A stretch of DNA of 64,000 nt from a virus: positions 27,614 through 91,613 of the IMG/VR virus record IMGVR_UViG_3300005528_000048; one strand, 5' to 3'. The notes below the pieces were generated by a model. It had not been told where the DNA came from. It made no database searches and saw only the letters and a list, made by a program, of their open reading frames with translations. This document shows, in pieces, positions 17,764 through 63,825 of the stretch. Made by a program: the position numbers and the translations under genes. Every line of letters starts with the position of its first letter. Position 1 is the stretch's first letter.

Positions 17764-18499
17764 TTTTAAAAGCCTCCCAAGAGAATGAATCGCTGCCACA
17801 GTGTTCTAAGTTTGGGCTAGAGAGCGATTGCTCTTTGCCAAAAGAACGATTGCATAAACACTTGTATGTTTGCCAAGCTTCAAAGTCTTTACGATTTTTG
17901 TAATAGATGGATTTTGTTTGCTGAATTTCTTCACCCTGCGCCGAAGCCCATTTTTCCACCTTGAGTTTTAAGATGTGATCAAAAGGCAAACTATTGTTTT
18001 CGACAAAGTAGGTTGCTTTTGTAAAGTTAAAGTTTGGCAAGCACTGTTTACCTCTAAAATTATTATTATAGATGAAAGAGTCGTAAAATGGAATGCACAG
18101 CATCAAATCGTTCGACCAATTGTTTTGTAAAAATACAGAGTCAACGAAGCCACCATTCTTGTTTGCTAGAGAAAAAATACGAATAAGGTTTTTGACACCA
18201 TTATCATTTTTAGCGAATAAGACGATCTTGTGCTCGGATGATTTTTTGTCCTCTTCTGAGACTGAATTACAACATGAAATTCTCAAACCAAAGATTAGTT
18301 GAATATCGTGCTCTTTACATTTCTGATAAGCGTCCAAAAAACCAATCATTGAATCCTCAACCAAGAAGACTGATTTTAGTTTATTTTCTTGAGCAATCGA
18401 AATGATGCTGTCAGAACCGCCTTCTTTGGTTTCTTTTGGATGATCTAGTGTGAGTATTGATTTGCCAATACTATATGTGCTCTTGAAGAGAGGAATCAT
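17753..18499 (-). CDS. DnaE PHP-domain part (N-terminal piece of split DnaE), active site lost
   Basis: The 248-residue protein matches the N-terminal PHP region of DNA polymerase III alpha. IISIAQENKLKSVFLVED aligns with the DnaE segment ending in LTDHGNM. QLIFGLRISCC matches the PIIGxE strand. HKIVLFAKNDNGVKNLIRIFS matches the next core strand and helix. The end, KSIYYKNRKDFEAWQTYKCL, aligns with DnaE just before the polymerase core. The PHP metal ligands are absent (no HxHSxxS at the start, VEDSM in place of TDHGN), so it is structural rather than catalytic. It probably binds the product of 13783-16338. The start is supported by a promoter at the right distance. Confidence 0.78.
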   Translation of the reverse strand: MIPLFKSTYSIGKSILTLDHPKETKEGGSDSIISIAQENKLKSVFLVEDSMIGFLDAYQKCKEHDIQLIFGLRISCCNSVSEEDKKSSEHKIVLFAKNDNGVKNLIRIFSLANKNGGFVDSVFLQNNWSNDLMLCIPFYDSFIYNNNFRGKQCLPNFNFTKATYFVENNSLPFDHILKLKVEKWASAQGEEIQQTKSIYYKNRKDFEAWQTYKCLCNRSFGKEQSLSSPNLEHCGSDSFSWEAFKNER

Positions 18500-18504
18500 G
18501 CTTT

Positions 18505-18533
18505 AATCTAGCATGATACGTTCTACCTGTCAA
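18505..18533 (-). promoter_or_regulatory. Sigma70-type promoter, leaderless, for the dnaE PHP part
   Basis: On the minus strand TTGACA (18533-18528), a 17-base spacer and TAGATT (18510-18505) lie with TAGATT ending five bases before the ATG at 18499. Transcription would start at or within one or two bases of the ATG. The -35 box lies inside the last codons of the upstream nuclease gene. Confidence 0.7.
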
Positions 18534-19560
18534 TTCCTTTATTGAAAGCAGGACAACCAGCATAGTGCATTATCTGGTATAAAAACTTGTCTTCTGGATA
18601 TTTTTTAAGGTAATCATCAAACTCATCTAAGAAGCAAGACGTAATCATTGTGCCTTTCATGTCGCTGATTTTGTAATAATAAAAATCAAACTTGTATGGA
18701 CAATGATATTTGGGATTGCCGTCTTTTTTTAATTCACCCTTTTTAGAAGCGAAACCACATTGAAGCGGCCCACTGAATGAGTTATCTTTTGGATAGTCTT
18801 GACGCGCTGCCAAATTTGAAAAGGCAGTTTGAATATTAAAATTATCCAAGTATTTTTGGATTTCGGTGAGTTCAGATTGAAACCCATCTAGCTCTTCTTC
18901 TGTTAAAGCTGGCATTCTTACAACACCTTTTTCTGTTGGCAAAAACTTTAAAAACAAGAATTCAGAGCGGCGATTTTTATAATCTGGAAACTGCTTTTTA
19001 ACAGCTAGTGAATACATCAAGTCTTGCAAGTTGTTTTCGAGGTCTTTGCCCTTGAAAACTTCTTTGCTGCTTTTGAAGTCGCGAATAATAGCCAAGCCCT
19101 GCTTCTTGTATAAGAAAAGCTTGTCAATGAAGCCTTTGATTTTATAATCAAACTTGCCTTCTTTAACATCAATTTCAAAGTCTTGTTCGCTTAATGCTTC
19201 GGATGGTTTGCCACATTCTGTTCCAAAAAAGTCATATTGTAAACCTGCAAGCGTCATGTCGCAGATTTGTTTAATGTTTTCTTCGTCATTAATGCCTTCT
19301 TTTTTGGCATGTTTGCGAATCAATCTTTCAATAGCTTTACTAGCAAAAACATTTCTCTTTTTAATAATAATGGAAAAATGCTTCTTGTGGCGATTTTCGC
19401 CCAAGCATTCGAAAACCAAATGGCATACAGAGCCGCGCTTTGCTCCACTATTGCTTCGATCAGGAAGTTTCAAGTGATATGAACACCAATACTTCCAACT
19501 GCACGATTGAGCAGTTTTGATGCGACTTGCCGATAGTGATGTTCGATTTTTAGATTCCAA
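18523..19560 (-). CDS. RecB-like PD-(D/E)XK nuclease
   Basis: The 345-residue protein starts with SASRIKTAQSCSWKYWC, typical of the RecB/Cas4/AddB nuclease family. Around residues 130-160 it has IKGFIDKLFL followed by AIIRDFKSSK, the G-x-D ... D-x-K core, and then the QLxxYxxA-like helix (NLQDLMYSLAV). Cys in CSWKYWC and in the later CGF and CPYK might ligate an iron-sulfur cluster, as in Cas4 and AddB. The reading frame opens at a TTG directly after a stop codon, and no ATG lies within the conserved start. A role in processing DNA ends during replication or recombination is inferred. Confidence 0.8.
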   Translation of the reverse strand: MESKNRTSLSASRIKTAQSCSWKYWCSYHLKLPDRSNSGAKRGSVCHLVFECLGENRHKKHFSIIIKKRNVFASKAIERLIRKHAKKEGINDEENIKQICDMTLAGLQYDFFGTECGKPSEALSEQDFEIDVKEGKFDYKIKGFIDKLFLYKKQGLAIIRDFKSSKEVFKGKDLENNLQDLMYSLAVKKQFPDYKNRRSEFLFLKFLPTEKGVVRMPALTEEELDGFQSELTEIQKYLDNFNIQTAFSNLAARQDYPKDNSFSGPLQCGFASKKGELKKDGNPKYHCPYKFDFYYYKISDMKGTMITSCFLDEFDDYLKKYPEDKFLYQIMHYAGCPAFNKGIDR

Positions 19561-19580
19561 AGTTTAGTTGATAGTAAAAT

Positions 19581-19799
19581 TTATTCGATTTCAGACCATG
19601 CTGCAAAAGTTTCAAACCAATCCTCTACGAATCTTTTCTCATCGCCAAAGATGGTTTTCATATTTTTCATGAACGCTTCTTTATTATTTAGAATCATTCC
19701 ACAAAACTCTTCGACAGAGATTTCTTTTGGAAAAAAGAATGCCGTTGTTTCTTGTCTAATTGGCTGGCCAAATAAAGTTCTATTTTTAGGTTCGCTCAT
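19581..19799 (-). CDS. Small acidic protein in replication operon, unknown function
   Basis: A 72-residue protein (NRTLFGQPIRQETTAFFFPKE ..., acidic C-terminal half) lies 5 bases after the primase gene and 20 bases before the RecB-like gene on the same strand. No motif is recognised. It may be an adaptor for the replisome, which is a guess from position only. Confidence 0.5.
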   Translation of the reverse strand: MSEPKNRTLFGQPIRQETTAFFFPKEISVEEFCGMILNNKEAFMKNMKTIFGDEKRFVEDWFETFAAWSEIE

Positions 19800-19804
19800 T
19801 TATT

Positions 19805-22358: not shown

Positions 22359-22381
22359 GCTACTCTTACGATACTCAGCAA

Positions 22382-22669
22382 TCAATCTTCGTCAACATCA
22401 TCTTCATCATTTCTTCCCATTTCTCCAAGATTGTATGCGGTTTCAGCATCGTCTGAATTTTGAAGATATTTTTCCAAAGCTTTTCTCATGCCAAATTCAA
22501 CCACTTGAGAATCATATTTACAGTAGATGACTGGAGTTCCATCTTCTGAAACATAAGCTAATAGCACACCCTTATACTTGTCCGCATTGCCGCTTAACTC
22601 ATAAATTTGTTCGATAAAGTTTGAAGGCATTTCAAACTGAGGAATTTCCTTGATTTTATTCTTCGGCAT
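22382..22669 (-). CDS. Small acidic protein upstream of dnaB, unknown function
   Basis: The 95-residue protein has a strongly acidic end (DDAETAYNLGEMGRNDEDDVDED). A beta-rich middle (YKGVLLAYVSEDGTPVIYCKY) looks like a small sensor or adaptor fold. It stands at the head of the helicase-primase transcript and has a promoter five bases before its ATG. A helicase loader would often occupy this place, but no loader motif is visible. Confidence 0.55.
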   Translation of the reverse strand: MPKNKIKEIPQFEMPSNFIEQIYELSGNADKYKGVLLAYVSEDGTPVIYCKYDSQVVEFGMRKALEKYLQNSDDAETAYNLGEMGRNDEDDVDED

Positions 22670-22674
22670 ACCTT

Positions 22675-22703
22675 ATATTACAGATAAATTTCGTACGATT
22701 CAA
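22675..22703 (-). promoter_or_regulatory. Probable leaderless promoter for the dnaB operon
   Basis: On the minus strand TTGAAT (22703-22698), 17 bases, TAATAT (22680-22675), then five bases to the ATG at 22669. The -35 box is weaker than in the related sites (4 of 6 consensus bases). The spacing and the 5-base gap are identical to the stronger members of the set. Confidence 0.55.
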
Positions 22704-29278: not shown

Positions 29279-29321
29279 GTTTACTTTTTACACTTAAAAA
29301 ATTATTTTTATCAACAATTAG

Positions 29322-31949: not shown

Positions 31950-31977
31950 ATATTACACACTGGTTGGTCGCTGTCAA
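31950..31977 (-). promoter_or_regulatory. Leaderless sigma70-type promoter for nrdBA
   Basis: On the minus strand TTGACA (31977-31972), a 16-base spacer and TAATAT (31955-31950) end five bases before the nrdB ATG at 31944. The transcript should begin at or next to the start codon. Confidence 0.8.
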
Positions 31978-32184: not shown

Positions 32185-32472
32185 ATGGTTATCCTCAAAA
32201 ACTTCAAACAAAAAATCTTCCTTGTCCAAAGTGGCGATTGGGAGTGTGTAGTTAACGCAGAAGACGTTACAGATGCTTGCTCAAAAGCACTAGAACAAGC
32301 AATGGCTTGCTACAAAGAAGCTGGTCTTGAAAATATCAGTCTTGGTTTTTTAATGTCTTGTCAAGAAATTCAGGAAGATTTAGAAAATATTTCGTATGTT
32401 CATACAGCGGCTATTTTAGCAAACAATGGCCACTACGAACTCGCTAAAAATTTAGATAATGAATTTTCCTGA
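32185..32472 (+). CDS. Small protein at head of dut operon, unknown function
   Basis: A 95-residue protein begins after GGAAGAAG, a fair ribosome-binding site. The sequence (SGDWECVVNAEDVTDACSKALEQAMACYKEAGLENI) looks like a small alpha-beta fold. It overlaps the dut gene by 14 bases and leads the nucleotide-metabolism transcript. No family recognised. Confidence 0.55.
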   Translation: MVILKNFKQKIFLVQSGDWECVVNAEDVTDACSKALEQAMACYKEAGLENISLGFLMSCQEIQEDLENISYVHTAAILANNGHYELAKNLDNEFS

Positions 32473-32992
32473 CCTGCTTTATGTTGTTGATCAAGATTCA
32501 AATTTATCCCATCCTGCCCATGATGGCGATGTTGGATATGATGTAGTTGCAGCTTCAAATCCAAAAATTGTTGGTGAATGTTTTGAAGACACCAACATTT
32601 ACAAAAGAATTGATTACATTGAGTATGATTTAAACGTCAAGGTTGACGGCTTTCAACCAGTCAATTCGCCAAATGAAGACATCTACACTCTTGTTTTTCC
32701 AAGATCAAGCGTGAGCAAATATAACTTGCTTTTAGCAAACTCCATTGGAGTTGTTGACTCTGGTTTTCGATCTACAATTAAAGTTAGATTTAAGTATATC
32801 ATGCAGCCAGAAGATTTAGTATTTTTTGATAATAAAATTCTCTGTATAGTTAATGAAAATAAAATTTATCAAAAAGGTGATAAAGTTTGCCAATTAGTAT
32901 TTCAAAAGCATTTTCACCCATCTATTGAATTTGTTGAAGAGCTTGAACAAACAGAAAGAAACGAAGGAGGCTTTGGCAGCACTGGCTTATGA
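32459..32992 (+). CDS. dut: dUTP diphosphatase (trimeric dUTPase)
   Basis: The 177-residue protein has the trimeric dUTPase motifs in order: AHDGDVGYDVV (motif 1), FPRSSVSKYNLLLANSIGVVD (motifs 2 and 3, with RSS and the catalytic Asp of GVVDSGF), KGDKVCQLVF (motif 4), and RNEGGFGSTGL (motif 5, the glycine-rich tail). It hydrolyses dUTP to dUMP, the substrate of ThyX (encoded at 60356), and keeps uracil out of DNA. There is an insertion of about 30 residues after motif 1. It overlaps the dNMP kinase gene by 4 bases. Confidence 0.93.
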   Translation: MNFPDLLYVVDQDSNLSHPAHDGDVGYDVVAASNPKIVGECFEDTNIYKRIDYIEYDLNVKVDGFQPVNSPNEDIYTLVFPRSSVSKYNLLLANSIGVVDSGFRSTIKVRFKYIMQPEDLVFFDNKILCIVNENKIYQKGDKVCQLVFQKHFHPSIEFVEELEQTERNEGGFGSTGL

Positions 32993-33603
32993 TTATTGGA
33001 ATTTCAGGAGTAGCCCGAAGTGGCAAAGACACTCTTGCCAACAACTTTGTAAAAATTTTTAAACATCTTGGCATCAAAGCCAAGAGATATGCTTTTGCAG
33101 ATGAGCTAAAGAGAGAAGTGCGACCATTTCTTAAAAAGAAAACTGGATTAGACTCCTTCACTCAAAATGATGACGAAAAGAAAATGATTCGTCCATTTCT
33201 TGTTGCTTATGGCACGCATATTCGCAGAGCGCTCAATGAGAACTGCTGGATTGATACTCTTTCTTCATATTTAAAAAATAACGAAATCGCAATCATTTCT
33301 GACGTTCGATACAAGAACGAGGCTGATTGGATTCAAAAAAATGGCTTTCTTATTCATATTGCGAGGCTTGACAAAGAAAACAATCTCATCAAACCAGCAA
33401 ATTCAGAAGAGCTTGAAAATGACCCTATTCTACAAGCACAAGCCAACTTGTCTTATGTTTGGCAAACAGTAGAAGAAAGCAAGGAAAAAGACAATCCATT
33501 CTCGCTTTCTGAATATAGCTGGGCTATTTTTGAACAATGCTTCGACTCGGAGGAAATCACACAATGGCAGACGACTTATCCCTTATCGAAGAAATCAAAA
33601 TAA
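32989..33603 (+). CDS. Deoxynucleoside monophosphate kinase
   Basis: The 204-residue protein starts IIGISGVARSGKDTLANNFV, the P-loop of T4 gp1-like dNMP kinases, and continues with YAFADELKREVRPFL, RPFLVAYGTHIRRALNENCWI, and IAIISDVRYKNEADWI (Walker B and lid). It phosphorylates dNMPs to dNDPs. It lies in one operon with dut and overlaps the sigma-like gene by 40 bases. Confidence 0.88.
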   Translation: MIIGISGVARSGKDTLANNFVKIFKHLGIKAKRYAFADELKREVRPFLKKKTGLDSFTQNDDEKKMIRPFLVAYGTHIRRALNENCWIDTLSSYLKNNEIAIISDVRYKNEADWIQKNGFLIHIARLDKENNLIKPANSEELENDPILQAQANLSYVWQTVEESKEKDNPFSLSEYSWAIFEQCFDSEEITQWQTTYPLSKKSK

Positions 33604-34130
33604 ATAACAACGAAAGTTGTTTAAAAGAATTGATCGCAAAACACTCTGGAATTTATTTACAGATTGTTAACCAAACAATTTCTGATCAGTCAAATATCAA
33701 TAAAAACGATATTATTGACGATAAAGACCTTTTCATCTATGAGAAGGCTCTAAAGTTTGACCCCAACAGAAGAATCAAGTTTTCAACTTATTTAGGCAAC
33801 GAAATAAAATGGAAATGCTTGAATATTCATAACAAGGTTAAAAAGTATGAATACTGTGATGTTGGTGATTTGTCTGAACATTTAGTTGACAAAGATTATA
33901 TTGGCGAGTATATTAACCAAGAAATCATCTCACTGATTTATGATAAGGCAGACAAATACCACGATGAAAGGGTAAGAAAAATTATTCAAATGCGTTATAG
34001 AGATTGCAAAAAGAATAAACTAACACCGTGGAAAAGAATTGCAAAAAAATTGAAATTATCAATACAAGGATGCATTAATATTCACAATAGGTTCATCAAG
34101 GAAATTAAACACGAATTAAACAATAATTAA
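33564..34130 (+). CDS. Sigma70-family-like transcription factor
   Basis: From the ATG at 33564 (chosen for GGAGG nine bases upstream) the product is 188 residues. Residues about 50-85 (DDKDLFIYEKALKFDPNRRIKF then STYLGNEIKWKCLN) match sigma region 2, with the FSTYxxxxI core of regions 2.3/2.4. Residues about 135-180 (VRKIIQMRYRDC, KRIAKKLKLSIQGCINIHNRFIKEI) look like a region 4 helix-turn-helix. It may act like the T4 gp55 late factor. It lies between dNMP kinase and ssb. Confidence 0.65.
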   Translation: MADDLSLIEEIKINNNESCLKELIAKHSGIYLQIVNQTISDQSNINKNDIIDDKDLFIYEKALKFDPNRRIKFSTYLGNEIKWKCLNIHNKVKKYEYCDVGDLSEHLVDKDYIGEYINQEIISLIYDKADKYHDERVRKIIQMRYRDCKKNKLTPWKRIAKKLKLSIQGCINIHNRFIKEIKHELNNN

Positions 34131-47670: not shown

Positions 47671-50600
47671 TTATTTATTAATTACGAATCCTTGAATGAT
47701 TCCGTTTGTTCTTACTGGAGCCACATAAGAAACAACAGATAGTGATCTGGATGCGGTTGCTGATATTGGGTTTGGATATGAACCAGTGTTTCTGGCAGTT
47801 ACTTTTAAAGTAAAGGTTCCAACTTCTGTTTGATCTTCAAAAATAGCAGAGTTACCAGTAACAGTTTGTTTGATGCTTTTAAATTTTGGAGTAATTAATT
47901 CAACATTGTAGGCGTTTGCGCCATTAACAGGCAACCAGCTTCCAGACAAATCTGCTGTATCTGCTTGCATGTCCCAATTGCCAGTTCTTAATGTTAAAAT
48001 TCTTGGGAATCCCAAGTCATACACATATTTATTTTGCAGCAATTCTGCTTGGCCTTCGCTCACTGCTGTATTTCTAGCTGGTGGGAAGGCGGAGAAGAAA
48101 TCTTGCATCAAGCCAGTTTCGCCTTGTTCAATCTCTGCAAATTTACCAGTGTCAAACTTTGAAGCAATGACCTCATATTCATTGAGGTTTAGTTCTTTGA
48201 TTGATTGAATTTTATAAACCTGCTGTTTAGTGTTAGCGATTGTAATGGAGCAAGGTGTTCCAGCGCGAACTTGCTGCAACAATGGATAGCCAGAACATCC
48301 AGTATCAATAAAGAACTTGGAACCATAATCCAATGCTGGAGAAGAGTCAATGACTTGAGTTCCAGTTGCTTGAAGCGTCACTCTGATCGGAACATCTGTT
48401 TGATAGAGTTCAGAAACACTTAACTTTGTTGGAGACTTGGCCAAATCATAAAAGTCATTAGACTGATATTTGCCAGTTGGAATCAGAACAGAAATTTCTC
48501 CCGTTAGTCCAGAAGAGCTAAAATCAGACGATTTAAGAGAAACATTAGTATATATAGAGTTATTAATTGTATCAACATCTAAAACTCGCCCCACATGATT
48601 TTTAAGGGTTTTAACATTGTCATTGATTGCGATCAAATCTCCTGGCCTGCATAAGAGAGTTTCCAAGTTGCCAACAAAGGCCACATTTTCGTCTTCATTA
48701 ATGGTGGAGTAGATGATGTGTTCACCAAGGCGTTTGGCGTGAGCGCGGCTAGTAATGCCAAAAGTTTGCGCTGTGGTTCTTAAAATGCCGCGAGTTTTAA
48801 TGTCATCAGGGTCTTCCACATATTCAATTTTCTGTTTGAACAAGTCGTCGCGATCTAAATAAGTCACTTCAATAACATTGTATTGTAAATCTCGACGCTC
48901 ATTTGAGTAGTTGAACATACCATCTTTCACATTCGAATTATTGAAGAAGCCCATGATTGGCTTGAGCCTATCGTTTGTGAAGTTGATTTCTGAGTTTGTG
49001 TAAAACATGTTGCCTCTAAAGCAAGCCACTAGAGACTTCAATGATTCAAACACATTGGTTTTATCAGCAATTACGCCATTAAAGGCATATCTTGGCTCTA
49101 GTCCGCCATCAGCAGCAGGAACGCCAACAAATACGCCATTAATATCAACACCATCACAATAGCGGCCAATCTTATAAAGCTCCCAATAGTTAACCTCAGA
49201 TGGCGAAATAAAGTTGCCTAATCCATATCTACGATTGATTAGAATATCAAAAAGAACCCAAACAGGATTATCGGTCCAAGCTAGTTTAAATGTTCCATCC
49301 CAATTGCCTTTATAAATTGTTTTTTCATCACTAGAATTGCTTAGGCTATTGAATGAAGCCAAATTCTTTCCAGCAATATATCTTTTGTCTTGACCATTTG
49401 CCTTGAGTGGAAAATAATTGCTTGGGACGAAAACTTTCTTAAATCTCGCGTCATAACTGCGAGCAGGAATGGAAGTGAATGTTCTAGCATCTAATTTTAA
49501 ACCACAAATGGTTGAGTATGGATAAGAAAATGGAACATTAATAATTTCGGTGATTTTTTGCAAATATATTTCACGGCGGATAAGTGAAGAGTAAGATTCC
49601 GCAGTTGTTCTATAGGCTCTTACAAATCTATTTTTATTAACTACATGGGGAGGAAGAGAAATTGGCTGTGCAATATTCTGACTTCCTAGAATAAAGCGGC
49701 TATATTGTTGAATTACTGAAGCGTTTTCTTCTCGACCAACATCAATTGATACTGGCGAATTAACCAAGCCTCTAACTTGGAACAATCTTGAAACAAACAA
49801 CTCTTCTTCTCCAGTTAGCGTTTGGTATCCAGTTTCAATTCTAAATTCTATTACGGAAGGAATGCTTGTGCCAGCTTGAACGTCTTCTTTTGTGCCATCT
49901 GACTTCAATAAAAGTAAATTTTGTTGAGCCGTATCTTGTAAACTTGTGATCTGCAAAGAAATAAATACTTGATCAACATTGGGATTTAAAACTATATGCG
50001 TAATTCTTGATCCAGGTTCCGATAAATACTTGACATAATTTTTATTCCAATTAGTATAGCTCTCAATAGCACCATTAACTTTTCTAAAATCATCACTTCC
50101 TTCGTTGGCGTAAGCGCCTTCTAATAAAGCGCGAAAAGCGATTCTGAAAAATAAAGGCCAACCAGTTGAAGGAGAGTAGGATGTTAAAAATACTTGACCA
50201 CTAAAAGAAGAATATTCATATATTAAAGTAAAATCAAAATTATTTGCATTTATCAAATCTTTTTGATAATCCGTTATGTAAACAGTATCCGTGGCTAATA
50301 TATTAAACTGATCACCATTGTTTTTAACAATGTTTCTTTTAAAACATTTTGTTGATTTATCAAAAGAAAGCGTAATTTTTATATCATTTGAATAAAAGCG
50401 ATAACTTACCTTGCCAGCTAATACCATCTGAATGATATTTCCAGTTTTATTCAATGATTCAATGGACCAAGAACTACTTCTAAATTCTGGATTAGGATTT
50501 AAAAGGCCAAGGGATAAAGTATTACCGCTCATTAGTTGTTTTGTTAAACTAACAAATTCAGATTCATTTTTAAATAAATCAGTATGCAAAGTTTTTAATT

Positions 50601-54362: not shown

Positions 54363-54867
54363 TCAGTTTGACTATAATGGCCAATGTTCCGATTCAGGAT
54401 ACTCTGCCGAAACTCTTTTTTCAGAAATGGCTGAAAAACGAGGTTGGAAAGTCTTAAAAGCAGACCGCAAACAACAACTCTCCCATGTTGATGTTTATTT
54501 AGACCACAAAAAACACGGCACTGTTTCTTTTGATGTTAAAGCTCAAAAGAAAGTGAAACGCACAGACTCAAATACAAACGATAAATATTTGTGGGTAGAG
54601 TTCGCGAATGTGGCTGGCAAAGAGGGTTGGCTTCGCGGCAGTGCTGATTTGATTGCTTTTGAACAAGAGAAGAATTTCTTAATTGTTAGGAGACAAGCTT
54701 TGTTAGATTTCTGCGAAAAGAACGTGGACTTCTCTGATAAGGTTGAGAGTTCTGGTGAGGCAGTGTATCGCATTTATCAGCGAAAAGGCCGCAAAGATGA
54801 GATTTCACTGATTCCTATAAAAGATATTAGAGAGCATTTATCTTATTCTCTTTGGAAGAAGCCATGA
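54349..54867 (+). CDS. PD-(D/E)XK nuclease-like protein
   Basis: The 172-residue protein has YSAETLFSEMAEKRGW (helix with Glu), HVDVYLDHKKHGTVSFDVKAQK (D-x-x-x ... F-D-V-K, the D ... DxK core), and KYLWVEFANVAGKEGWL. This matches small DNA endonucleases of the restriction-fold group that phages carry near replication genes. Substrate and role uncertain. Confidence 0.65.
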   Translation: MKYRNQFDYNGQCSDSGYSAETLFSEMAEKRGWKVLKADRKQQLSHVDVYLDHKKHGTVSFDVKAQKKVKRTDSNTNDKYLWVEFANVAGKEGWLRGSADLIAFEQEKNFLIVRRQALLDFCEKNVDFSDKVESSGEAVYRIYQRKGRKDEISLIPIKDIREHLSYSLWKKP

Positions 54868-55520
54868 TGGAATTTTCTCCATGCAAGCATAAATGGATTT
54901 GGAGCATGATTTTTATTCGTGTTCCTAAAAACGCCAGCACTTCTATCTATTCTCACCTTGGCGATCTTAATTTGATTAAAAAACATGAAAAAACCTTTCA
55001 TGATGTTTTCTTTAAAAGAAACCCATATAATCAACGAGTCTCGACTACGCACGTTAAACCAAACGAAATTTATCAAATTTTTGGTTCAATGGTTCACAAT
55101 TACATGTCTTTTTCTGTAGTTAGAAATCCATTTGATCGTACAGTTTCCTTATTTCAGTATGCCAAAGAAAAAAAACTAGGCAATCTTTATCAAAGATCAA
55201 ATGACGCATCTTTCGAAGATTTTTGCGAAATTATGAGTGAAAATTACGCAAATAATACAAAAGATTTTATTGCTACTCATCAACAAGTTGAGTGGTTCGA
55301 AGGCGCATTTCAGCCTAATTTTATTCTTCGTTTCGAAAATATTAAAAATGATTTTAAAGAAATGCTTGATCTTTGCGAAATCAAACACATTAATCCAGAT
55401 ATTCCGCACGAAAACGCAAGCAAAAGATCAGATTATAAAGACTATTACAATTCCAATACAAAAAAGATAGTTGAAAAAATCTTTGAAAAAGACATTGACA
55501 CATTCAAATATACCTATTAA
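54864..55520 (+). CDS. Sulfotransferase family protein 3
   Basis: From the ATG at 54864 (GGAAGAAG site) the product is 218 residues. MIFIRVPKNASTSIYSHLG is the 5'-phosphosulfate loop (with Arg-Val-Pro-Lys-Asn in place of IPKTGG), and FSVVRNPFDRTVSLFQYAK is the 3'-phosphate site. It overlaps the nuclease-like gene by 4 bases. The loop differs from copies 1 and 2, so the acceptors probably differ as well. Confidence 0.82.
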   Translation: MMEFSPCKHKWIWSMIFIRVPKNASTSIYSHLGDLNLIKKHEKTFHDVFFKRNPYNQRVSTTHVKPNEIYQIFGSMVHNYMSFSVVRNPFDRTVSLFQYAKEKKLGNLYQRSNDASFEDFCEIMSENYANNTKDFIATHQQVEWFEGAFQPNFILRFENIKNDFKEMLDLCEIKHINPDIPHENASKRSDYKDYYNSNTKKIVEKIFEKDIDTFKYTY

Positions 55521-55523
55521 GGT
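55495..55523 (+). promoter_or_regulatory. Sigma70-type promoter, leaderless type, before 55529 gene
   Basis: TTGACA (55495-55500), a 17-base spacer and TAAGGT (55518-55523) lie with TAAGGT ending five bases before the ATG at 55529. It lies in the last codons of the sulfotransferase gene. AAGGTAAG in this segment could also serve as a ribosome-binding site. Confidence 0.55.
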
Positions 55524-55528: not shown

Positions 55529-55783
55529 ATGACTGGTAAAATTAAAATCATTGGCGCAAACAATCAAGCCCATCTTGATTGGATGGAAAAAGAATTTGAG
55601 AACTGCACGATTGAACACGCTGGCGGAAACGCAGCAGTTCACAGTGTTAAAGTTCCAGATCGAGGCGAGTTTCCTTTTGAGCTTTACAAAACTATTGTTA
55701 TTCAAGACCGCATCATCTTTGAGGGCTATGCTCATTTTGAAGATAATCTTGGCCGTTTAGCAATCGAATTCTTTCCTCAATGA
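55529..55783 (+). CDS. Small protein of unknown function
   Basis: An 84-residue beta-rich protein (IKIIGANNQAHLDWMEKEFEN, VPDRGEFPFELYKTIVIQ). It ends with a 4-base overlap with the following gene. No recognised motif. Confidence 0.5.
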   Translation: MTGKIKIIGANNQAHLDWMEKEFENCTIEHAGGNAAVHSVKVPDRGEFPFELYKTIVIQDRIIFEGYAHFEDNLGRLAIEFFPQ

Positions 55784-57000: not shown

Positions 57001-57001
57001 C

Positions 57002-57199
57002 ATGGAAAACAAATCAGGCGTTAAGTGGTATTCAGTTTATAGTCAAAAGGGCGAGCATCAAGCCTCTTATGATCAGTATTTCTCTGATGCGTATGTTTGG
57101 GCCTTAGATTGTGCCAAACATATTGGTGGCTACATTTGCGAGTGCGAGGTTGGCCAAGAGGAAAAAGTGATTTTCAATGCTCTCAAAAAGCAGCCGTGA
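57002..57199 (+). CDS. Small protein, unknown function
   Basis: A 65-residue protein (SGVKWYSVYSQKGEHQASYD, DCAKHIGGYICECEVGQEEK). It starts one base after the stop of the upstream gene and overlaps the next gene by 4 bases (GTGA). The cysteine pair might bind metal. Function unknown. Confidence 0.5.
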   Translation: MENKSGVKWYSVYSQKGEHQASYDQYFSDAYVWALDCAKHIGGYICECEVGQEEKVIFNALKKQP

Positions 57200-57665: not shown

Positions 57666-57671
57666 AGACTA

Positions 57672-58259
57672 ATGAGCGAACTACAAGAGCGTCAACTCTC
57701 CGATTGGAATAACAGCCAAAGCTGGAATGCATTTTTTGAACAATTTAATGAGTATTTAAAAACATTGGCCCACTCATACAAACTTCCATCACAAGATGTG
57801 GATGATGTTGTTCAAGAGGTTTTCATTTCAATGGCGAATTACTTTCGCGAAAATAAGTTCGACTCGTCAAAGGGAAACATTTATTCTTGGGTCACAACAT
57901 TTGCCAAGTGGAGAATGGTTGACATTATTCGCCGCAATCAACGTCAGCACAAGCATGTTACAACTGGCGACGATCTTCTCATGGAAATGCAGCCAGACGA
58001 GAATCAAGACCTTGATGCAAAACTTGAGAATAATTATCAGCAAAAACTCTTTGTTCAAGCTTTGAAAAATCTTGGCAAAGTTCACAAGAGCAAAGACTAT
58101 ATGATCTTTTGCGATATGCATTTTAACCAACTAAATAATGATCAGTTGATGAAGAAATACAAAGTGAACTGTGGCACAGTTTACATTGCTAAACACCGCA
58201 TGATCAAAAAAATCAAAGAGGAAGTCAGCAGAATCCTCTGCGAAGAGCCAAACTACTAA
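57672..58259 (+). CDS. ECF-type RNA polymerase sigma factor
   Basis: The 195-residue protein has sigma region 2 at about residues 35-85 (LPSQDVDDVVQEVFISMANYF then YSWVTTFAKWRMVDIIRRNQ, with the DDxxQ/VFxxM and WRMVDxIRR motifs) and region 4 at about 130-180 (MIFCDMHFNQLNNDQLMKKY, VNCGTVYIAKHRMIKKI). A short acidic linker connects them. It should direct RNA polymerase to phage promoters. No anti-sigma factor gene is recognised next to it. Confidence 0.85.
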   Translation: MSELQERQLSDWNNSQSWNAFFEQFNEYLKTLAHSYKLPSQDVDDVVQEVFISMANYFRENKFDSSKGNIYSWVTTFAKWRMVDIIRRNQRQHKHVTTGDDLLMEMQPDENQDLDAKLENNYQQKLFVQALKNLGKVHKSKDYMIFCDMHFNQLNNDQLMKKYKVNCGTVYIAKHRMIKKIKEEVSRILCEEPNY

Positions 58260-58690
58260 TGCAGTTTAAAAAAGGTGTTTCAACAGAGAAGGTAGAGTTA
58301 GGAAACTGGCGCGGAGAAACTGCTGTTTTTAAATACCTAAAAACAAATGGCAAATTCATAAGAGAACTAGATGCTTACAGAATACTGGAGTCTTGCGAGT
58401 TTGTGCCAAAATTATTGGCAAGTTCCATAGATGATAGAGTGATTGTCACTAAATATGTTGGCCAATCGTTAAATTTAAAATACCTTCCACCAGAGAGAAA
58501 AAAGTTTAAAACTCAAATCCAAAATATGAATCATGAATTAGTTCATGTTTATGGAATTCATCACAATGACATTCGGTGGAAAAATGTGGTAGAGTCTGAT
58601 GACGGCAAATTGTTTTTAATTGATTTTGAATCTTGGACCTCAACAGAAAAAGGCTCCAAAGAGCGCGACCCTGAAAAAATCTTATCTTGA
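58259..58690 (+). CDS. Miniature kinase-like protein
   Basis: The 143-residue protein keeps the core of an ATP-dependent kinase: FKYL (Lys25), an acidic helix near residue 36, HHNDIRWKNVV (101-111; Asp104 catalytic, Asn109) and FLIDFESW (Asp122, DFE in place of DFG). This pattern, with a short N-lobe and no C-lobe extension, resembles lipopolysaccharide/RIO-type minimal kinases. Substrate unknown. It overlaps the sigma stop by one base. Confidence 0.7.
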   Translation: MQFKKGVSTEKVELGNWRGETAVFKYLKTNGKFIRELDAYRILESCEFVPKLLASSIDDRVIVTKYVGQSLNLKYLPPERKKFKTQIQNMNHELVHVYGIHHNDIRWKNVVESDDGKLFLIDFESWTSTEKGSKERDPEKILS

Positions 58691-58714
58691 CAAAAGACAA
58701 GCATGGGTTACTGT
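58687..58714 (+). promoter_or_regulatory. Leaderless sigma70-type promoter for the UV endonuclease gene
   Basis: TTGACA (58687-58692), a 16-base spacer and TACTGT (58709-58714) lie with TACTGT ending five bases before the ATG at 58720. It begins on the last bases of the kinase gene. Confidence 0.68.
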
Positions 58715-58719
58715 TTACT

Positions 58720-59631
58720 ATGAACCTATCCCTTTGCTGCATCTCAAAAACATTGTCTGATAACGGGCAGAGCTTTCGCTCTATGACTTATACGCAGTTT
58801 GCCAAGCTGCCATTCAACGCTGCTATCAGCGAGCTTTCCGAGCGCATCTTGCACAATTTCAAGATGACGCTCAATACTATTCGCTTCTGTCAGCTTAACA
58901 ACATTCAAGGCTATCGCTTGTCCTCTTCTCTTGCTCCAGTATTGACGCACAAGAACGTCAATCTGCGCATTGCAGACCTGCCCAACATCGCTGCTATCCG
59001 TAGTGTTTGTGACTCTATCAAGCAACTTTTGGCGCAGCATCCTCTTCGCTTGTCTGCTCATCCTAGCGAATACATCACACTATCGTCTGACAATCCAGAA
59101 TGCATCAATAACAGCATCCTTGACCTACAGCAACATGCAGAAGTGTTTGACTTGCTTGGTCTTCCTCAAGACTATCGTTCGCCGCTCAACATACATGTTA
59201 GACAGGATGGCGACCCTCAAACCATTGCAGACAAGGTATTGCGCGTTTACGATCAACTGCCAGACAATATTCGTCAACGCCTTGTGCTTGAGAACAATGA
59301 CAATGCCAAAGGTGTTTGGGGCATCAAGAATCTTGTCAAGTATTTCTACGGTTCTCGCAACATCCCCATCACTTACGACTCTTTGCATCACAGCATCTTG
59401 CATGACAATCTAGCAGCAGAGGAAGCATTCAATCTTGCTTACGAAACTTGGCCAACTACTCCACTGTTTCACTACAGCGAAGGCATTGATGGCACTCGTA
59501 AACATGCTGACATGCCAGTTTCAATTCCCAACAACTATGGCCGTGATGTTTATTTTGATGTGGAACTCAAACACAAATGCCAAGCTATTTTCCGCATTCG
59601 TGAGTTGACAAAGCAAGCAATCTCCGCATAA
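58720..59631 (+). CDS. uvsE: UV DNA damage endonuclease (UvdE/UvsE)
   Basis: From the ATG at 58720 the product is 303 residues. LCCISKTLSDNGQSFRSMTY, NNIQGYRLSSSLAPVLTHKN, LRLSAHPSEYITLSS, LNIHVRQDGD, RLVLENNDN and YDSLHHSIL match UvdE in order; the His/Glu/Asp residues of the TIM-barrel metal centre are present. It nicks DNA 5' to pyrimidine dimers. Base composition is richer in G+C than the neighbours, suggesting separate acquisition. Confidence 0.88.
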   Translation: MNLSLCCISKTLSDNGQSFRSMTYTQFAKLPFNAAISELSERILHNFKMTLNTIRFCQLNNIQGYRLSSSLAPVLTHKNVNLRIADLPNIAAIRSVCDSIKQLLAQHPLRLSAHPSEYITLSSDNPECINNSILDLQQHAEVFDLLGLPQDYRSPLNIHVRQDGDPQTIADKVLRVYDQLPDNIRQRLVLENNDNAKGVWGIKNLVKYFYGSRNIPITYDSLHHSILHDNLAAEEAFNLAYETWPTTPLFHYSEGIDGTRKHADMPVSIPNNYGRDVYFDVELKHKCQAIFRIRELTKQAISA

Positions 59632-59632
59632 T
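59605..59632 (+). promoter_or_regulatory. Leaderless-type promoter for the gene at 59639
   Basis: TTGACA (59605-59610), a 16-base spacer, CATAAT (59627-59632) and then 6 bases to the ATG at 59639. The -10 differs from TATAAT at one base. Confidence 0.6.
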
Positions 59633-59638
59633 GTAAGC

Positions 59639-60208
59639 ATGAAAAACAAATTTTGGTACCCTGTTCCAGCTTCTCAAACATGGGAGGGTTGGGAAACTTG
59701 GCGCAAAAACATTAAGAAACAATATCCAATTCAGTATTGGATGCGCGAAACTGCGCCTCATTGGTTCTCAATTCATATCAAATGGCCATGTCGAGAACTA
59801 TACTGGAAAGTTTATCGTTTTTTCAAGCCATGTCATAAGGATATTCGCAAGGTTATTCCTCGTCAGTGGAGCGACATCTCTAATTTAATTGTTGAGGTTA
59901 ATTTTGCCATGATTCTTTCGTTTAAGAAAGAGGCTGAATCTTCTTTTGTAGATTGGGATGGCACACCCGAACATCGCAAATTCAAGAACTGGCTTGATTC
60001 TGCTGTTCATTGGATTGAAGAAGGCAGGCCAAATTGTGAAGCGCAGCGAGACGTTTTGTATCCTCCACATCCTCTGCCACCAGAATTAAAAAATAAAACT
60101 TATGATGAACTTTATGGTGAACTTAATAAAGTTGAAGCACTGATTGCTCAAACAGACACTAGCATTCTCAAACAAATGGTTGAATACCGCGATTACTTTT
60201 GGACATGA
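59639..60208 (+). CDS. Tryptophan-rich phage protein, unknown function
   Basis: The 189-residue protein is rich in Trp (FWYPVPASQTWEGWETWRKN, YWMRETAPHWFSIHIKWPC) and has a helical tail (ELYGELNKVEALIAQTDTSIL). No family is recognised. It begins about 8 bases after the UV endonuclease gene, with its own promoter. It overlaps the next gene by 4 bases. Confidence 0.5.
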   Translation: MKNKFWYPVPASQTWEGWETWRKNIKKQYPIQYWMRETAPHWFSIHIKWPCRELYWKVYRFFKPCHKDIRKVIPRQWSDISNLIVEVNFAMILSFKKEAESSFVDWDGTPEHRKFKNWLDSAVHWIEEGRPNCEAQRDVLYPPHPLPPELKNKTYDELYGELNKVEALIAQTDTSILKQMVEYRDYFWT

Positions 60209-60363
60209 AAATCAATAGAGAAAAACTATACGAACTTTATCTACAAGCAATGGATGAAATTCTTGACGAGTGCGATTGGAAAACGCATTTCACTGCACAA
60301 GAATGCGTGTATCTTGTATCGAGAGTTCTAGAACAAAACCCCGAACTAATTAAAAATGACTAA
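60205..60363 (+). CDS. Small protein, unknown function
   Basis: A 52-residue protein (KINREKLYELYLQAMDEIL, DECDWKTHFTAQECVYLVSR) that is too short for a family. It overlaps the upstream gene by 4 bases and ThyX by 8 bases, which supports it as a real gene. Mostly helical. Confidence 0.55.
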   Translation: MKINREKLYELYLQAMDEILDECDWKTHFTAQECVYLVSRVLEQNPELIKND

Positions 60364-61033
60364 TAAAGTTGAACTCATTGGATTCTATGGTAGCGACGAG
60401 ATTCATGCATGTTCTGCTTGGACATCCACTAGCCGCGACATCACGGAAGAAAAGCGCGAACGTATTCCCAAGCTTTTGAAGATGCTTGCAGAACAGGGAC
60501 ATCACACTCCTTTTGAAAAAAGCAGCCTGCATTTTCTTGTGGATTGCGACATTGCTTCTCACATCCACCTACTCAAGCACCGTATTGGCGTTTCGATCAA
60601 TGGAGAAAGTGCTAGGTACAAAGAACTGAAAGAAGATAAGTTTTATATTCCTGATGATTGGGCTGCATTAGATGGTCATAGTGGTGAGGAATGGGACTGT
60701 CCTTGGACAAATTTTTCTGTTGATAGTTGGGCAGAAACACTTCAAAAGTTTACCGAAGAAGGTAATGCATTATACCATCAGTGCCTCAAAGAGCTTGAAC
60801 CCGTTCTTGGTCGCAAACGCGCAAAAGAATCTGCTCGCTTCTTCAAGACTTACAATTCGCAAATTCAAGCTGATGTGATGTTCAATTGGCGCAGCTTCCA
60901 TCATTTCTTAGAGCTTCGCAACAAACCAGAGGCGCAGAAAGAAATTCGCGATATTGCAGAATATATGCTTCTTCTTGTAAAATATATTGAAGGCAACCCC
61001 TTCAAATACGCACTTGACGCTTTTGGATATTAG
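60356..61033 (+). CDS. thyX: Flavin-dependent thymidylate synthase
   Basis: The 225-residue protein has the ThyX motif: HLLKHRIGVSINGESARY is the R/K-H-R-x2-S-x-N-x2-S-x-R-Y signature. ARFFKTYNSQIQADVMFNWR and SFHHFLELRNKPEAQKEIR follow, the second FAD and dUMP-binding region. It makes dTMP from dUMP using FADH2 and methylene-tetrahydrofolate. Together with Dut and the dNMP kinase it completes a dTTP supply. Confidence 0.95.
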   Translation: MTNKVELIGFYGSDEIHACSAWTSTSRDITEEKRERIPKLLKMLAEQGHHTPFEKSSLHFLVDCDIASHIHLLKHRIGVSINGESARYKELKEDKFYIPDDWAALDGHSGEEWDCPWTNFSVDSWAETLQKFTEEGNALYHQCLKELEPVLGRKRAKESARFFKTYNSQIQADVMFNWRSFHHFLELRNKPEAQKEIRDIAEYMLLLVKYIEGNPFKYALDAFGY

Positions 61034-61041
61034 TCTATATT
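61014..61041 (+). promoter_or_regulatory. Leaderless sigma70-type promoter for the phosphatase gene
   Basis: TTGACG (61014-61019), a 16-base spacer and TATATT (61036-61041), then five bases to the ATG at 61047. The site begins in the last codons of thyX. Confidence 0.75.
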
Positions 61042-61046
61042 GCAGC

Positions 61047-61481
61047 ATGAATACAATCAACCACTACACAGACTTTGCCAATGCTGAAAAATATGCTAAA
61101 AATTATGACGCAGTAGTTTCTCTTGGTCATTTTCTTCCTGAAAGATTTCGTGAAGGGAAAAAATATCTGTTTTTAGATTTTGAAGACGAAACCTTTGCCT
61201 CTATTAATATAGACCCAACTAATGCAAAATATGCTCCCCAAGAATCCCATATACAAAAGTTTTTGGATTTCATTCGCGATTTGTATCCTATTGACAAGTT
61301 GTTGGTTCATTGTTTTGCTGGATACAGCCGCAGCCCAGCAGCAGTCGCAATCGCAAAATGCGAGCGTGATAGAAAAAGCCTTGACATCGCTCTACAAGAG
61401 TTGTATGATGCAAGGATTCCAGACAAATTGAAGCCACATCCAAACGATGTAATACTTCATCAATACACAATGATTCGATGA
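61047..61481 (+). CDS. Dual-specificity/tyrosine phosphatase-like protein
   Basis: From the ATG at 61047 the product is 144 residues. LLVHCFAGYSRSPAAVAIA at 86-102 gives the P-loop H-C-x5-R-S (Cys89, Arg95). SLGHFLPERFRE sits upstream, and PHPNDVI resembles the recognition end of DSP-fold enzymes. A target protein, RNA or nucleotide cannot be named. The start is set by a promoter box ending five bases upstream. Confidence 0.82.
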   Translation: MNTINHYTDFANAEKYAKNYDAVVSLGHFLPERFREGKKYLFLDFEDETFASINIDPTNAKYAPQESHIQKFLDFIRDLYPIDKLLVHCFAGYSRSPAAVAIAKCERDRKSLDIALQELYDARIPDKLKPHPNDVILHQYTMIR

Positions 61482-61969
61482 AACTACTAGGATTTACAAA
61501 CGGCAAACAAATTGTAGCGTCAATTGCACGTCATGACTACAATAGTCTTGGCGAGGGAACTGAATACATTATGGCTGATGGTGGCCAACCGAACATTGGA
61601 GACTCAGCAGGTTACAATAGGAAACATGGCAAACGAGTTTGGTTCGAGGTTCCTCAAACTTTTGCCGAACTCTACAATGATTGGAACCAGTCACTTAATA
61701 AACCAAGAAAATATGGAACTTGGAACTATAATGAAGTAAAAATCCTAACGCCAGAAGAGGTTCCCAATACTGAAAGTTTTGAGTGGCAAGCTGAAAACGC
61801 TATTTGGGGAACGTGTGGAATTAATGGCGATCAACCAACTTCTTATATTATGCTGAAAGACTGTTCGCCTGAACATTTAATAAACATTAAAGAACTATGC
61901 GAAAAGCGCAAAAACAATTCATTACTAAAAATAGTCAATTTTTGGGTCAGCCAAAAGTGTAAAGAATAG
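61478..61969 (+). CDS. Unknown protein downstream of the phosphatase
   Basis: The 163-residue protein (KLLGFTNGKQIVASIARHDYN, TYNLIMADGGQPNIGD-like start, WFEVPQTFAELYNDWNQS) has an alpha-beta pattern. It overlaps the phosphatase by 4 bases. I recognise no motif. It ends one base before the small membrane protein. Confidence 0.5.
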   Translation: MKLLGFTNGKQIVASIARHDYNSLGEGTEYIMADGGQPNIGDSAGYNRKHGKRVWFEVPQTFAELYNDWNQSLNKPRKYGTWNYNEVKILTPEEVPNTESFEWQAENAIWGTCGINGDQPTSYIMLKDCSPEHLINIKELCEKRKNNSLLKIVNFWVSQKCKE

Positions 61970-61970
61970 T

Positions 61971-62150
61971 ATGATTAATTGGATTATCACTCATCAACTT
62001 GACATCTTTCATGCAGTTACAGCCACGATTGCGGCCTTTGCTGCAATTGCAGCTTTGACTCCAACTCCGAAAGACGACACTTGGGCAGGCAAGCTCTACA
62101 AGATTGTGGATTGGCTCGCTCTCAATGTTGGCAAAGCCAAGGATAAATAA
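61971..62150 (+). CDS. Small membrane protein, possible holin
   Basis: A 59-residue protein has one predicted membrane helix (FHAVTATIAAFAAIAAL, residues about 13-29), then a polar TPTPKDDTWAGKLYKIVDWL and LALNVGKAKDK tail. Single-helix proteins with a TPTPKDD turn and this tail are widespread in phages, and some are annotated as holins. It starts one base after the preceding stop. A strong terminator follows. Confidence 0.6.
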   Translation: MINWIITHQLDIFHAVTATIAAFAAIAALTPTPKDDTWAGKLYKIVDWLALNVGKAKDK

Positions 62151-62183
62151 TACCCCTCTTATAGACTTCGGTTTATAGGACGC

Positions 62184-62220
62184 AGAGCGGCTCTATTTTG
62201 AGCCGCTCTTGCATTTTTTG
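62184..62220 (+). terminator. Rho-independent terminator after the small membrane protein
   Basis: A 10-bp stem (62184-62193 with 62200-62209), a TATTTT loop and a tail TGCATTTTTTG. It ends the plus-strand block. Its right arm is also the coding sequence for the last residues of the convergent metallopeptidase gene, whose stop codon lies in the hairpin loop. Confidence 0.87.
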
Positions 62221-62894
62221 TCATAGCGCTGAAAAAGCTCAAAATACTCTTCTGATAAGTTTTCAAACTTACTAAGGATTTTTTGCGGGAAATTCCTATA
62301 GAAACATTTGTTTTTAATCTCTATAGTTTCAGAAATCCACTTGCGCGATTGCGCCATATACAAGTAGGAAAACATGTAAGCATTAGCAGACTGAGCATAA
62401 GTTTCGGGCGAAATAATGTGCGACCATCTCTTTTTTATTTTTTTGATGGACCGTCTCTCGCAGTCAGACTCAAGAGCAATCACATGTTTTGCTGTTTCTG
62501 TGGGATTTTTAATGTTTTTAATCTTGAGCAACCAATCAAAAAAACTATTAAAATTGCGCGAAACTTTCTGATTGTGCCATATAGACTGACGGTTTAGCCA
62601 CTGATCAAAGTGGGAATCTTCGTGAACAAGAGTGGCAATGACCCATTTTAAAGGTTTATTCACTGCAATGGCTAGTTCCTTGGGAGAATCAGAGAAGAAA
62701 CCGCCGCAACTCCCGCCTCCAGAATAAACAACAGAACCGCTGGAAACTCTAAACTTGACTCCATGTTTTGCGCATTTTTCGTTGATTTCGTAAAAATAGT
62801 CCTGCACATCTTTGGGAAAAGAGTTTAAGATGGCGCGAGCTTTCTTGTCTATTTTCACAGAAATATTTACACCTTGGAACCGTACTTCTTGCAT
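62193..62894 (-). CDS. Zinc metallopeptidase-like protein (HExxH)
   Basis: From the ATG at 62894 the product is 233 residues. KWVIATLVHEDSHFDQWLNRQ gives HEDSH (HExxH zinc motif), and HVIALESDCERRSIKKIKK places a Glu downstream in the style of gluzincins. The first 100 residues contain a glycine-rich SSGSVVYSGGGSCGGF. Role unknown; peptidoglycan or capsid processing is possible. The start codon overlaps that of the divergent oxygenase gene. Confidence 0.62.
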   Translation of the reverse strand: MQEVRFQGVNISVKIDKKARAILNSFPKDVQDYFYEINEKCAKHGVKFRVSSGSVVYSGGGSCGGFFSDSPKELAIAVNKPLKWVIATLVHEDSHFDQWLNRQSIWHNQKVSRNFNSFFDWLLKIKNIKNPTETAKHVIALESDCERRSIKKIKKRWSHIISPETYAQSANAYMFSYLYMAQSRKWISETIEIKNKCFYRNFPQKILSKFENLSEEYFELFQRYDKKCKSGSK

Positions 62895-63705
62895 GAAAAA
62901 GACCAGTTTTGACGATTCTTGGAAATTTTGGATTTGGGACAACGTAAAGAGAGGTTCCTCCAAGAGAGAATTGGCACAAATTTTGCTTGACAAAGGCTTT
63001 GATGAAAGCCTAATCATTCAAGAATTTTCCATGCCAGACATCTTAAAAAAGGTTGAAGGCATTTCTCCACCCGTTAAAATTGAAGATTTGACTGCTAAAT
63101 TTGGCGCAGAAAAAATCTCTGATAAATTAAACATCTTTAAAATCAAGAACGCTTTGACACAGGACCAGTGTTCTCGCGCCATTGAAATCATCAAGAATCG
63201 TTGCCAAAAATCTTCTGTGATTGACTACGATAACGGCGGCAGCAAGATTTCCGACTTTCGCACAAGCTCCACTGCTCATTTGTTCCGCAATTCTGACCCC
63301 ACAATTGCTGAGATTGAAGATGCTATTTTAAACATTGTTGGCATTCCAGAGCAATACAGCGAGCAAGTTCAAGGCCAATACTACAAAGTTGGCGAGCAAT
63401 TTAAGCCTCATTTTGATTCTTTCTTTCCTCTTAGTGATGACCAAAAAAAACAGCTAGAGCGACACGGCAACCGCACTTGGACAGCAATGGTTTACTTGAA
63501 TGACACTCCCAAAGGAGGTCACACTAGATTCACAGAAATAGACTTGGAAACAAAACCCGAAACTGGCACAATGATTCTTTGGCAAAACACTAGAGAAGGT
63601 TCAAACATTCCTGAATCAAAGCATTGGGGAATGCCAGTTGAAGAAGGAGAAAAATTCATTCTGACAAAATGGTTTCGCGAAAAACCTTACCAAAATCTTT
63701 CTTGA
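62893..63705 (+). CDS. Prolyl 4-hydroxylase-like 2-oxoglutarate/Fe(II) oxygenase
   Basis: From the ATG at 62893 the product is 270 residues. The C-terminal half is P4Hc: YYKVGEQFKPHFDSFFPLS (H-x-D), TAMVYLNDTPKGGHTRFTEI, MILWQNTREG, and HWGMPVEEGEKFILTKWFRE (distal His and Lys/Arg for 2-oxoglutarate). The first 75 residues have no clear domain. Target: perhaps a virion protein. The first codon shares two bases with the start codon of the opposite gene. Confidence 0.83.
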   Translation: MKKTSFDDSWKFWIWDNVKRGSSKRELAQILLDKGFDESLIIQEFSMPDILKKVEGISPPVKIEDLTAKFGAEKISDKLNIFKIKNALTQDQCSRAIEIIKNRCQKSSVIDYDNGGSKISDFRTSSTAHLFRNSDPTIAEIEDAILNIVGIPEQYSEQVQGQYYKVGEQFKPHFDSFFPLSDDQKKQLERHGNRTWTAMVYLNDTPKGGHTRFTEIDLETKPETGTMILWQNTREGSNIPESKHWGMPVEEGEKFILTKWFREKPYQNLS

Positions 63706-63729
63706 CAACTAAACCTTTGGGGTTATAGT
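63702..63729 (+). promoter_or_regulatory. Sigma70-type promoter before the gene at 63739
   Basis: TTGACA (63702-63707), 16 bases, TATAGT (63724-63729), then nine bases to the ATG at 63739, leaving a leader of only two or three bases. Confidence 0.7.
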
Positions 63730-63738
63730 GTTGCTCAC

Positions 63739-63825
63739 ATGACACTATTTTTTATTTTTGTATTAGCAATGATTGCTGCGTTTTCGAGTGACACGGAACT
63801 ATTTGAGAGCTTTTTTAAACGATGA
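63739..63825 (+). CDS. Tiny membrane-like protein
   Basis: A 28-residue product (LFFIFVLAMIAAF is a short hydrophobic helix, then a charged end) directly after a strong promoter. It is too short for a family. The promoter position and the start of the next gene two bases after its stop support it. Confidence 0.5.
   Translation: MTLFFIFVLAMIAAFSSDTELFESFFKR

Follow-up and report, generated by a model that had tools for sequence, protein, structure and literature searches.

The DNA considered here is a stretch of 64,000 nucleotides (nt), called the window below, that comprises bases 27,614–91,613 of the 91,613-base virus record IMGVR_UViG_3300005528_000048. Among its genes are nrdB, the two parts of a DnaE-type polymerase and a UvdE-like UV endonuclease, and at many of its gene starts, as placed by a simple codon-based caller, promoter-like elements lie close against the ATG. 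An initial annotation had described these as one recurrent design, TTGAC(A/G), 16 or 17 nt, TAnnnT, exactly five nt and ATG, from which it predicted a class of leaderless mRNAs. Two promoter classes are in fact combined in that description; the second, with the motif GTGTAA, is the stronger one. We call class A the genes preceded by the GTGTAA element, class B those preceded by TTGAC plus TAnnnT, and class C those with TAnnnT and no TTGAC. In both promoter classes the placement of a −10 element directly upstream of the start codon exceeds chance.

The five exact class B sites that had been listed are all found where they were claimed. On the minus strand they precede nrdB (start 31944; 31950–31977, TTGACA, 16 nt, TAATAT, gap 5) and the PHP part of the polymerase (start 18499; 18505–18533, TTGACA, 17 nt, TAGATT, gap 5). 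On the plus strand they precede the UvdE-like gene (start 58720; 58687–58714, TTGACA, 16 nt, TACTGT, gap 5), the gene starting at 61047 (61014–61041, TTGACG, 16 nt, TATATT, gap 5) and, as a candidate only, the gene starting at 55529 (55495–55523, TTGACA, 17 nt, TAAGGT, gap 5), whose poor −10 element TAAGGT is alternatively readable as a Shine-Dalgarno-like site. A six-base gap is likewise present at 59639, a plus-strand class B candidate (59605–59632, TTGACA, 16 nt, CATAAT, gap 6). At 63739 the nine-base gap exists, but it leads into an open reading frame (ORF) of a mere 28 codons close to the record's end. The start at 22669, which had been taken for a weaker version of the same design, has no TTGAC, and the sequence directly upstream of it, CTGTAATAT (feature at 22669–22691, minus strand), is a one-base variant of the GTGTAA motif.

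Chance occurrence of the exact class B pattern was assessed with 200 dinucleotide shuffles, with internal ATGs and with the reversed pattern, the last also serving as the control for class B counts in related records. The whole record contains just the five copies, the reversed pattern has none, and the shuffles average 0.10 copies with not one of the 200 reaching five; in this sense the expectation that the full design would be rarer in shuffled sequence was borne out. The shorter search that had been proposed, TAnnnT-N5-ATG anywhere in the record and blind to genes, gives no excess (67 copies vs 61.1 in shuffles), but the same element is enriched at gene starts (13/101 gene ATGs vs 24/1532 internal ATGs). 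At called starts the distance from TAnnnT to ATG peaks at 5 (15 copies, other positions having 1–8), and 8 of the 23 TTGAC copies within 100 nt upstream of starts sit 33–34 nt away; TTGAC 33–37 nt upstream occurs at 9/101 gene ATGs vs 15/1532 internal ones (p=6e-6). The gap of exactly five proves to be a habit of this record, since the pooled class B relatives prefer six (30 of 51, with 6 at gap five).

When hexamers were counted without bias in the 40 nt preceding 109 genes, the GTGTAA element ranked first (14 observed vs 0.56 expected). At 8–11 nt upstream it is found before 11/101 gene ATGs vs 1/1532 internal ATGs. Class A elements lie on the plus strand at 5552–5557 (start 5566, gap 8), 16352–16357 (10 nt before a LAGLIDADG gene, start 16368) and 61957–61962 (start 61971, gap 8), and on the minus strand at 10045–10050 (9 nt before the start at 10035), 13778–13783 (10 nt before an ATP-dependent protease gene, start 13767) and 29288–29293 (9 nt before a DUF5824-like gene, start 29278). 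A further minus-strand copy, at 9832–9837, is 25 nt away from the start at 9806 and represents a leadered arrangement, accompanied by a Shine-Dalgarno-like site. The nrdB gene carries both classes, its GTGTAA (31958–31953, gap 8) overlapping the class B promoter. In many nrdB relatives (L013–L087) TTGAC occurs some 14–24 nt upstream of GTGTAA at a varying distance, which suggests that a host-type and a GTGTAA promoter overlap at this gene.

Three groups of related records were used to ask how general these arrangements are: a first set of 15 that includes the record itself (G008 and G009 being near duplicates), 16 other large records picked through searches with two sigma-like genes described below, sigma2 and sigma3 (G017 in this set overlaps G005), and 12 records whose 1150 ATG genes supplied the gene-start profiles. 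GTGTAA-N8-10-ATG is present 167 times vs 38 for the control in the 16 records (157 vs 35 when G017 is left out), and GTGTAA-N8-12-ATG 141 times vs 26 in the first set. The hexamer is the top upstream word in 10 of the 12 records and second in G005. Among its 90 anagrams it ranks first both in 75 nrdB-centred loci, where 83 of 272 unique copies lie 5–14 nt before an ATG ORF (median anagram 3.5%; nrdB itself supplies many of the 83), and in 80 sigma2-centred loci, where 95 of 328 lie at gaps of 7–13 nt, 85 of them at 8–10. Among the orthologs listed, of 33–61% protein identity, it is kept before 11/11 DUF5824-like, 8/9 PhoH and 8/10 portal-like genes, two of these last 8 sites being at 14–15 nt. 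In the 32 nt upstream that were inspected it was absent from terminase (0/9) and sigma2 (0/9) genes, and alignment of 80 GTGTAA sites reveals no −35 element.

Class B is equally a property of the family, TTGACN-N16-17-TAnnnT-N5-7-ATG occurring 175 times vs 6 for the reversed pattern in the 16 records (149 vs 6 without G017). In the profiles TAnnnT at gaps of five and six together reaches 188 copies vs 57.7 expected, or 160 vs 51.6 once genes with GTGTAA are removed. When 107 genes are picked solely for TAnnnT at gap six, a −35 signal appears (T 74% at −34), together with an A-rich tract around −45 to −39 and a pyrimidine-rich position −1 (C 41%, T 24%, G 5%); judged from sequence, a sigma-70 promoter that starts transcription (+1) at the A of the ATG would look like this. 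The extended −10 TGnTA is modest in the TAnnnT class (18/188 sites vs 35/749 in background). Class B would fit the primary sigma factor of the host.

The scarcity of Shine-Dalgarno sites, which had been offered as a mark of the leaderless genes, is no class marker because the whole family hardly uses such sites at all: runs of at least five matching the consensus precede 6/84 class A, 2/51 class B, 2/116 class C and 72/856 (8%) other genes, background windows having 5.5%. The accompanying statement that late genes do carry them stands weakly in the record (7/105 starts, the terminase included), but there is no clear family-wide excess. From three cases in the record we had also supposed that GTGTAA genes with long leaders bear Shine-Dalgarno sites; this was rejected, runs of at least four being present in 9/38 vs a background of 21%. 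Absence of these sites does not by itself imply leaderless mRNA, since Flavobacterium johnsoniae lacks them, yet 87% of its predicted transcripts are described as having leaders longer than 10 nt (PMC6847099).

A pyrimidine at −1 is found in 55/84 class A, 37/51 class B and 85/127 class C genes vs 441/888 others. Class A genes frequently have a divergent upstream neighbor (26/83 vs 39/861 other genes, p=5e-13), and class B genes avoid tight junctions (34/51 vs 242/861). A strong hairpin (−12 or below) with a U-tract ending 10–27 nt before the ATG precedes 7/84 class A genes vs 1/888 others (p=2e-7), with 0/51 in class B and 1/127 in class C. The seven belong to four gene lineages by sequence likeness, and at six of them the U-tract leads straight into GTGTAA. 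A terminator just upstream of an ATG implies that the surviving message must start behind it, in the last bases before the start codon.

These computed observations of position, excess over chance, conservation and context make it quite probable, in our judgment, that this uncultivated tailed-phage lineage sets −10 elements against the ATG and produces leaderless mRNAs, with a host sigma factor serving class B and a phage sigma-like protein class A. From the placement of the promoters we infer, as the best reading, that in either class transcription begins at the A of the ATG or a few bases away, which places the 5′ end of the message at or next to the start codon. In class B, TTGAC, 16–17 nt, TAnnnT and mostly 5–7 nt before the ATG would be read by the primary sigma factor of the host; in class A, GTGTAA alone, mostly 8–11 nt before the ATG, would most likely be read by host RNA polymerase carrying the phage-encoded protein; the genes behind it have replication, nucleotide-metabolism and structural functions. 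Ribosomes that accept a 5′-terminal AUG would then translate these messages. The prediction of leaderless transcripts is thus well supported as regards promoters set against the ATG, namely by the position statistics, the conservation in the family, the pyrimidine at −1, the terminators and the profile of Thermus phage phiYS40 (see below), but for two classes rather than one. The proposed restriction to early or middle genes does not hold, GTGTAA being present before portal-like and PhoH genes as well. The two classes do tend to occupy different regions, because neighboring class A and B genes belong to the same class more often than when shuffled (78 of 124 pairs in the 12 records; shuffled mean 64.9, with 24/5000 reaching 78). 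This is as temporal classes would behave, and the two may differ in early or late expression.

Several observations weigh against this interpretation. The records are related genomes, so that pooled counts are not independent. In G007 taken alone the class B peak is not significant (p=0.13), and in G013 GTGTAA is outside the top five hexamers. The gap in class A is not fixed but varies from 8 to 12 nt (mostly 8–11), and 38 genes have GTGTAA 17–54 nt upstream and would be leadered. Class B is not enriched for divergent neighbors (4/51, p=0.22). The pairing of reader and element is drawn indirectly, and the favored reader, sigma2, seems to have two domains and possibly a region 4, although the GTGTAA sites have no visible −35 box.

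Among the alternatives, the one that survives best holds that the leaderless design is the host's own, host genes themselves having −10 boxes next to the ATG, a habit that the phage would share. It is possible, though we do not favor it: class B resembles ordinary primary-sigma promoters, TANNNT next to the ORF is described as common in Deinococcus-Thermus bacteria (PMC12340547), and leaderless phage mRNA from class B is compatible with it, but it leaves GTGTAA unexplained. An unlikely variant is that the promoters are real and give leaders of about 3–10 nt, too short for a ribosome site though not strictly absent; the varying gaps (4–8 nt in class B, in addition to those of class A) speak for such short leaders, and the preference for a pyrimidine at −1 in all classes fits a +1 at the A of the ATG instead. 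We regard as improbable the view that GTGTAA acts in translation or as an operator, standing in for the Shine-Dalgarno site and telling nothing about the 5′ end: its spacing does resemble Shine-Dalgarno spacing, no −35 box accompanies it and true Shine-Dalgarno sites are nearly absent, but it concentrates where a gene needs its own promoter, that is beside divergent neighbors and right behind terminators, and it also occurs at the 38 more distant positions just mentioned. Chance or base composition, which the lack of excess in the gene-blind search might seem to favor, is refuted by the shuffles, the internal ATGs, the reversed patterns, the other A/T-fixed hexamer shapes used as controls for the TAnnnT peak and the control phages, there being no peak in the TAnnnT gap in stretches of T4, MaeS, P-SSM2, phi14:2 and HTVC008M (22–60 genes each), and can practically be dismissed.

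If GTGTAA is a phage promoter in the favored sense, it is probably read by a phage-encoded sigma-like protein, and this single phage record contains three sigma-like genes, two of which, sigma2 and sigma3, recur in most of the relatives compared. By its profile scores sigma1 (57672–58259, plus strand) is clearly an ECF-type sigma factor, over the curated cut-offs of both families (TIGR02937, 57.1 bits with a cut-off of 42.9; Sigma70_r2 PF04542, 36.1 bits with a cut-off of 24). Its candidacy as the GTGTAA reader is weakened by its distribution: the profile is present in 2 of the 15 records, both near-identical to the record itself, and was not found in the remaining 13, each of which shows the GTGTAA pattern. 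In nine sigma1 loci (L092–L100) GTGTAA stands before an ATG ORF at just three distinct sites and is absent from the top hexamers.

The sigma2 gene lies outside the window, at 4477–5163 of the record (L006), and scores 26 bits with PF04542 (cut-off 24) and 32.4 bits, under the cut-off, with TIGR02937. It is found in 9 of the 12 records and in 12 of the 16 others (four of the 16 having been chosen by it), near PhoH and terminase genes, and has relatives at no fewer than 582 loci in IMG/VR. The predicted structure has two helical domains, modeled with moderate confidence. Sigma factors come out as its best structural matches, though with low TM-scores and never with E<=0.001. Four records without a sigma2 match, possibly fragments, have GTGTAA-N8-10-ATG counts, against the control, of 4 vs 5 (G018, 150 kb), 7 vs 2, 4 vs 2 and 12 vs 4. 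The third gene, sigma3 (33564–34130, plus strand), is called sigma-like only, its TIGR02937 match (E=7e-4) and that of its homolog in G005 (2e-7) both being under the cut-off. Homologs are present in 12/12 records and in 16/16 others, twelve of the 16 having been chosen by sigma3. In G022 (43138) and in G029 (47932–48492) a single stop codon interrupts the sigma3 frame. A tblastn search of the phage collection with sigma1 and sigma2 gave no match. We tentatively favor sigma2 as the reader of GTGTAA, with sigma3 and sigma1 as alternatives.

To our knowledge GTGTAA matches no common bacterial promoter. Known systems offer partial parallels. Middle and late promoters of phiYS40, the phage studied by Sevostyanova et al. 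(2007), have a single −10-like element, and the phage is not known to have a sigma factor of its own. Its first 50 kb resemble the present family in layout, without implying homology: TAnnnT peaks at a gap of six (9 vs 1.2 expected) and TTGAC occurs 33–36 nt before starts. It differs in that the upstream hexamers most enriched there resemble Shine-Dalgarno sites (GGGAGG, AGGAGG), which this family lacks, and GTGTAA is outside its ten best. Most of its middle and late mRNAs are reported to be leaderless (PMC3594737). A phage sigma factor with a single-element promoter has a precedent in gp36 of phiEco32, which is described as using tAATGTAtA with starts 6–8 bp downstream and no −35 box (PMC8948821). 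The motif is another one, the excerpts of that source report no fixed contact with the start codon, and sigma1 and sigma2 have no sequence match in the phage collection. The TANNNT boxes of Deinococcus-Thermus, a few bases before the ORF and giving leaderless mRNA, belong to cellular genes; here the genes are those of a phage family, the TTGAC box is strong and a second class exists beside it. In Bradyrhizobium japonicum transcription starts that lie on a start codon or up to 10 nt from it are associated with the extended −10 TGnTA, only modest in our TAnnnT class, and the authors compare these leaderless genes to those of phiYS40 (PMC4842269). By analogy the family appears closest to phiYS40 in layout and, in its likely use of a phage sigma factor, to phages of the phiEco32 type. 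In a paper on phage 7-11 the single match to GTGTAA belongs to a different motif (PMC4331800), and the excerpts found on leaderless phage transcripts report neither this phage family nor the GTGTAA motif.

Leaderless translation tends to be regarded as a secondary route in bacteria. One paper describes phage transcripts as often leaderless (PMC5312081), but phiYS40 is the sole phage for which the literature excerpts found describe most middle and late messages in this way. We see about equal grounds for and against a stronger formulation, in which the phage sigma factor and the start codon act as a single unit: GTGTAA, the sole DNA element seen for this factor, would set +1 on the A of the ATG, the choice of promoter and the choice of start codon would be a single event, and much of the infection would run on leaderless mRNA from both promoter kinds and almost without Shine-Dalgarno sites. 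If a large lineage does use the leaderless design for replication, nucleotide-metabolism and structural genes, it would be a main route for these phages. Both 5′ ends and start codons would be predictable from sequence alone, phage-encoded sigma-like proteins testable with Escherichia coli core RNA polymerase would be indicated, and the host would be narrowed to bacteria that translate leaderless messages well.

A search for the host by means of the portal-like protein gave 10 contigs (L175–L184) in bins of discordant groups (Verrucomicrobiales, Flavobacteria, Patescibacteria, Halobacteriovorax, Neomarinimicrobiota, Rhodospirillales and one further group), which are probably stray viral contigs. 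The samples are presumably aquatic, judging by IMG sample numbers and bin names. A search of 30 records for ribosomal protein bS21, which could affect initiation, gave no match. As to the neighboring genes, the DnaE-type polymerase is split on the minus strand into a body (13783–16338) and the PHP part (17753–18499), between which lie an RNase_T exonuclease gene (17116–17763) and, on the opposite (plus) strand, the LAGLIDADG gene (16368–17153). The protein encoded at 61047–61481 has a weak similarity, under the family cut-offs, to dual-specificity phosphatases. The auxiliary genes further include those for a sulfotransferase-like protein (54867–55520), the UvdE-like UV endonuclease (58720–59631) and a dUTPase (32459–32992).

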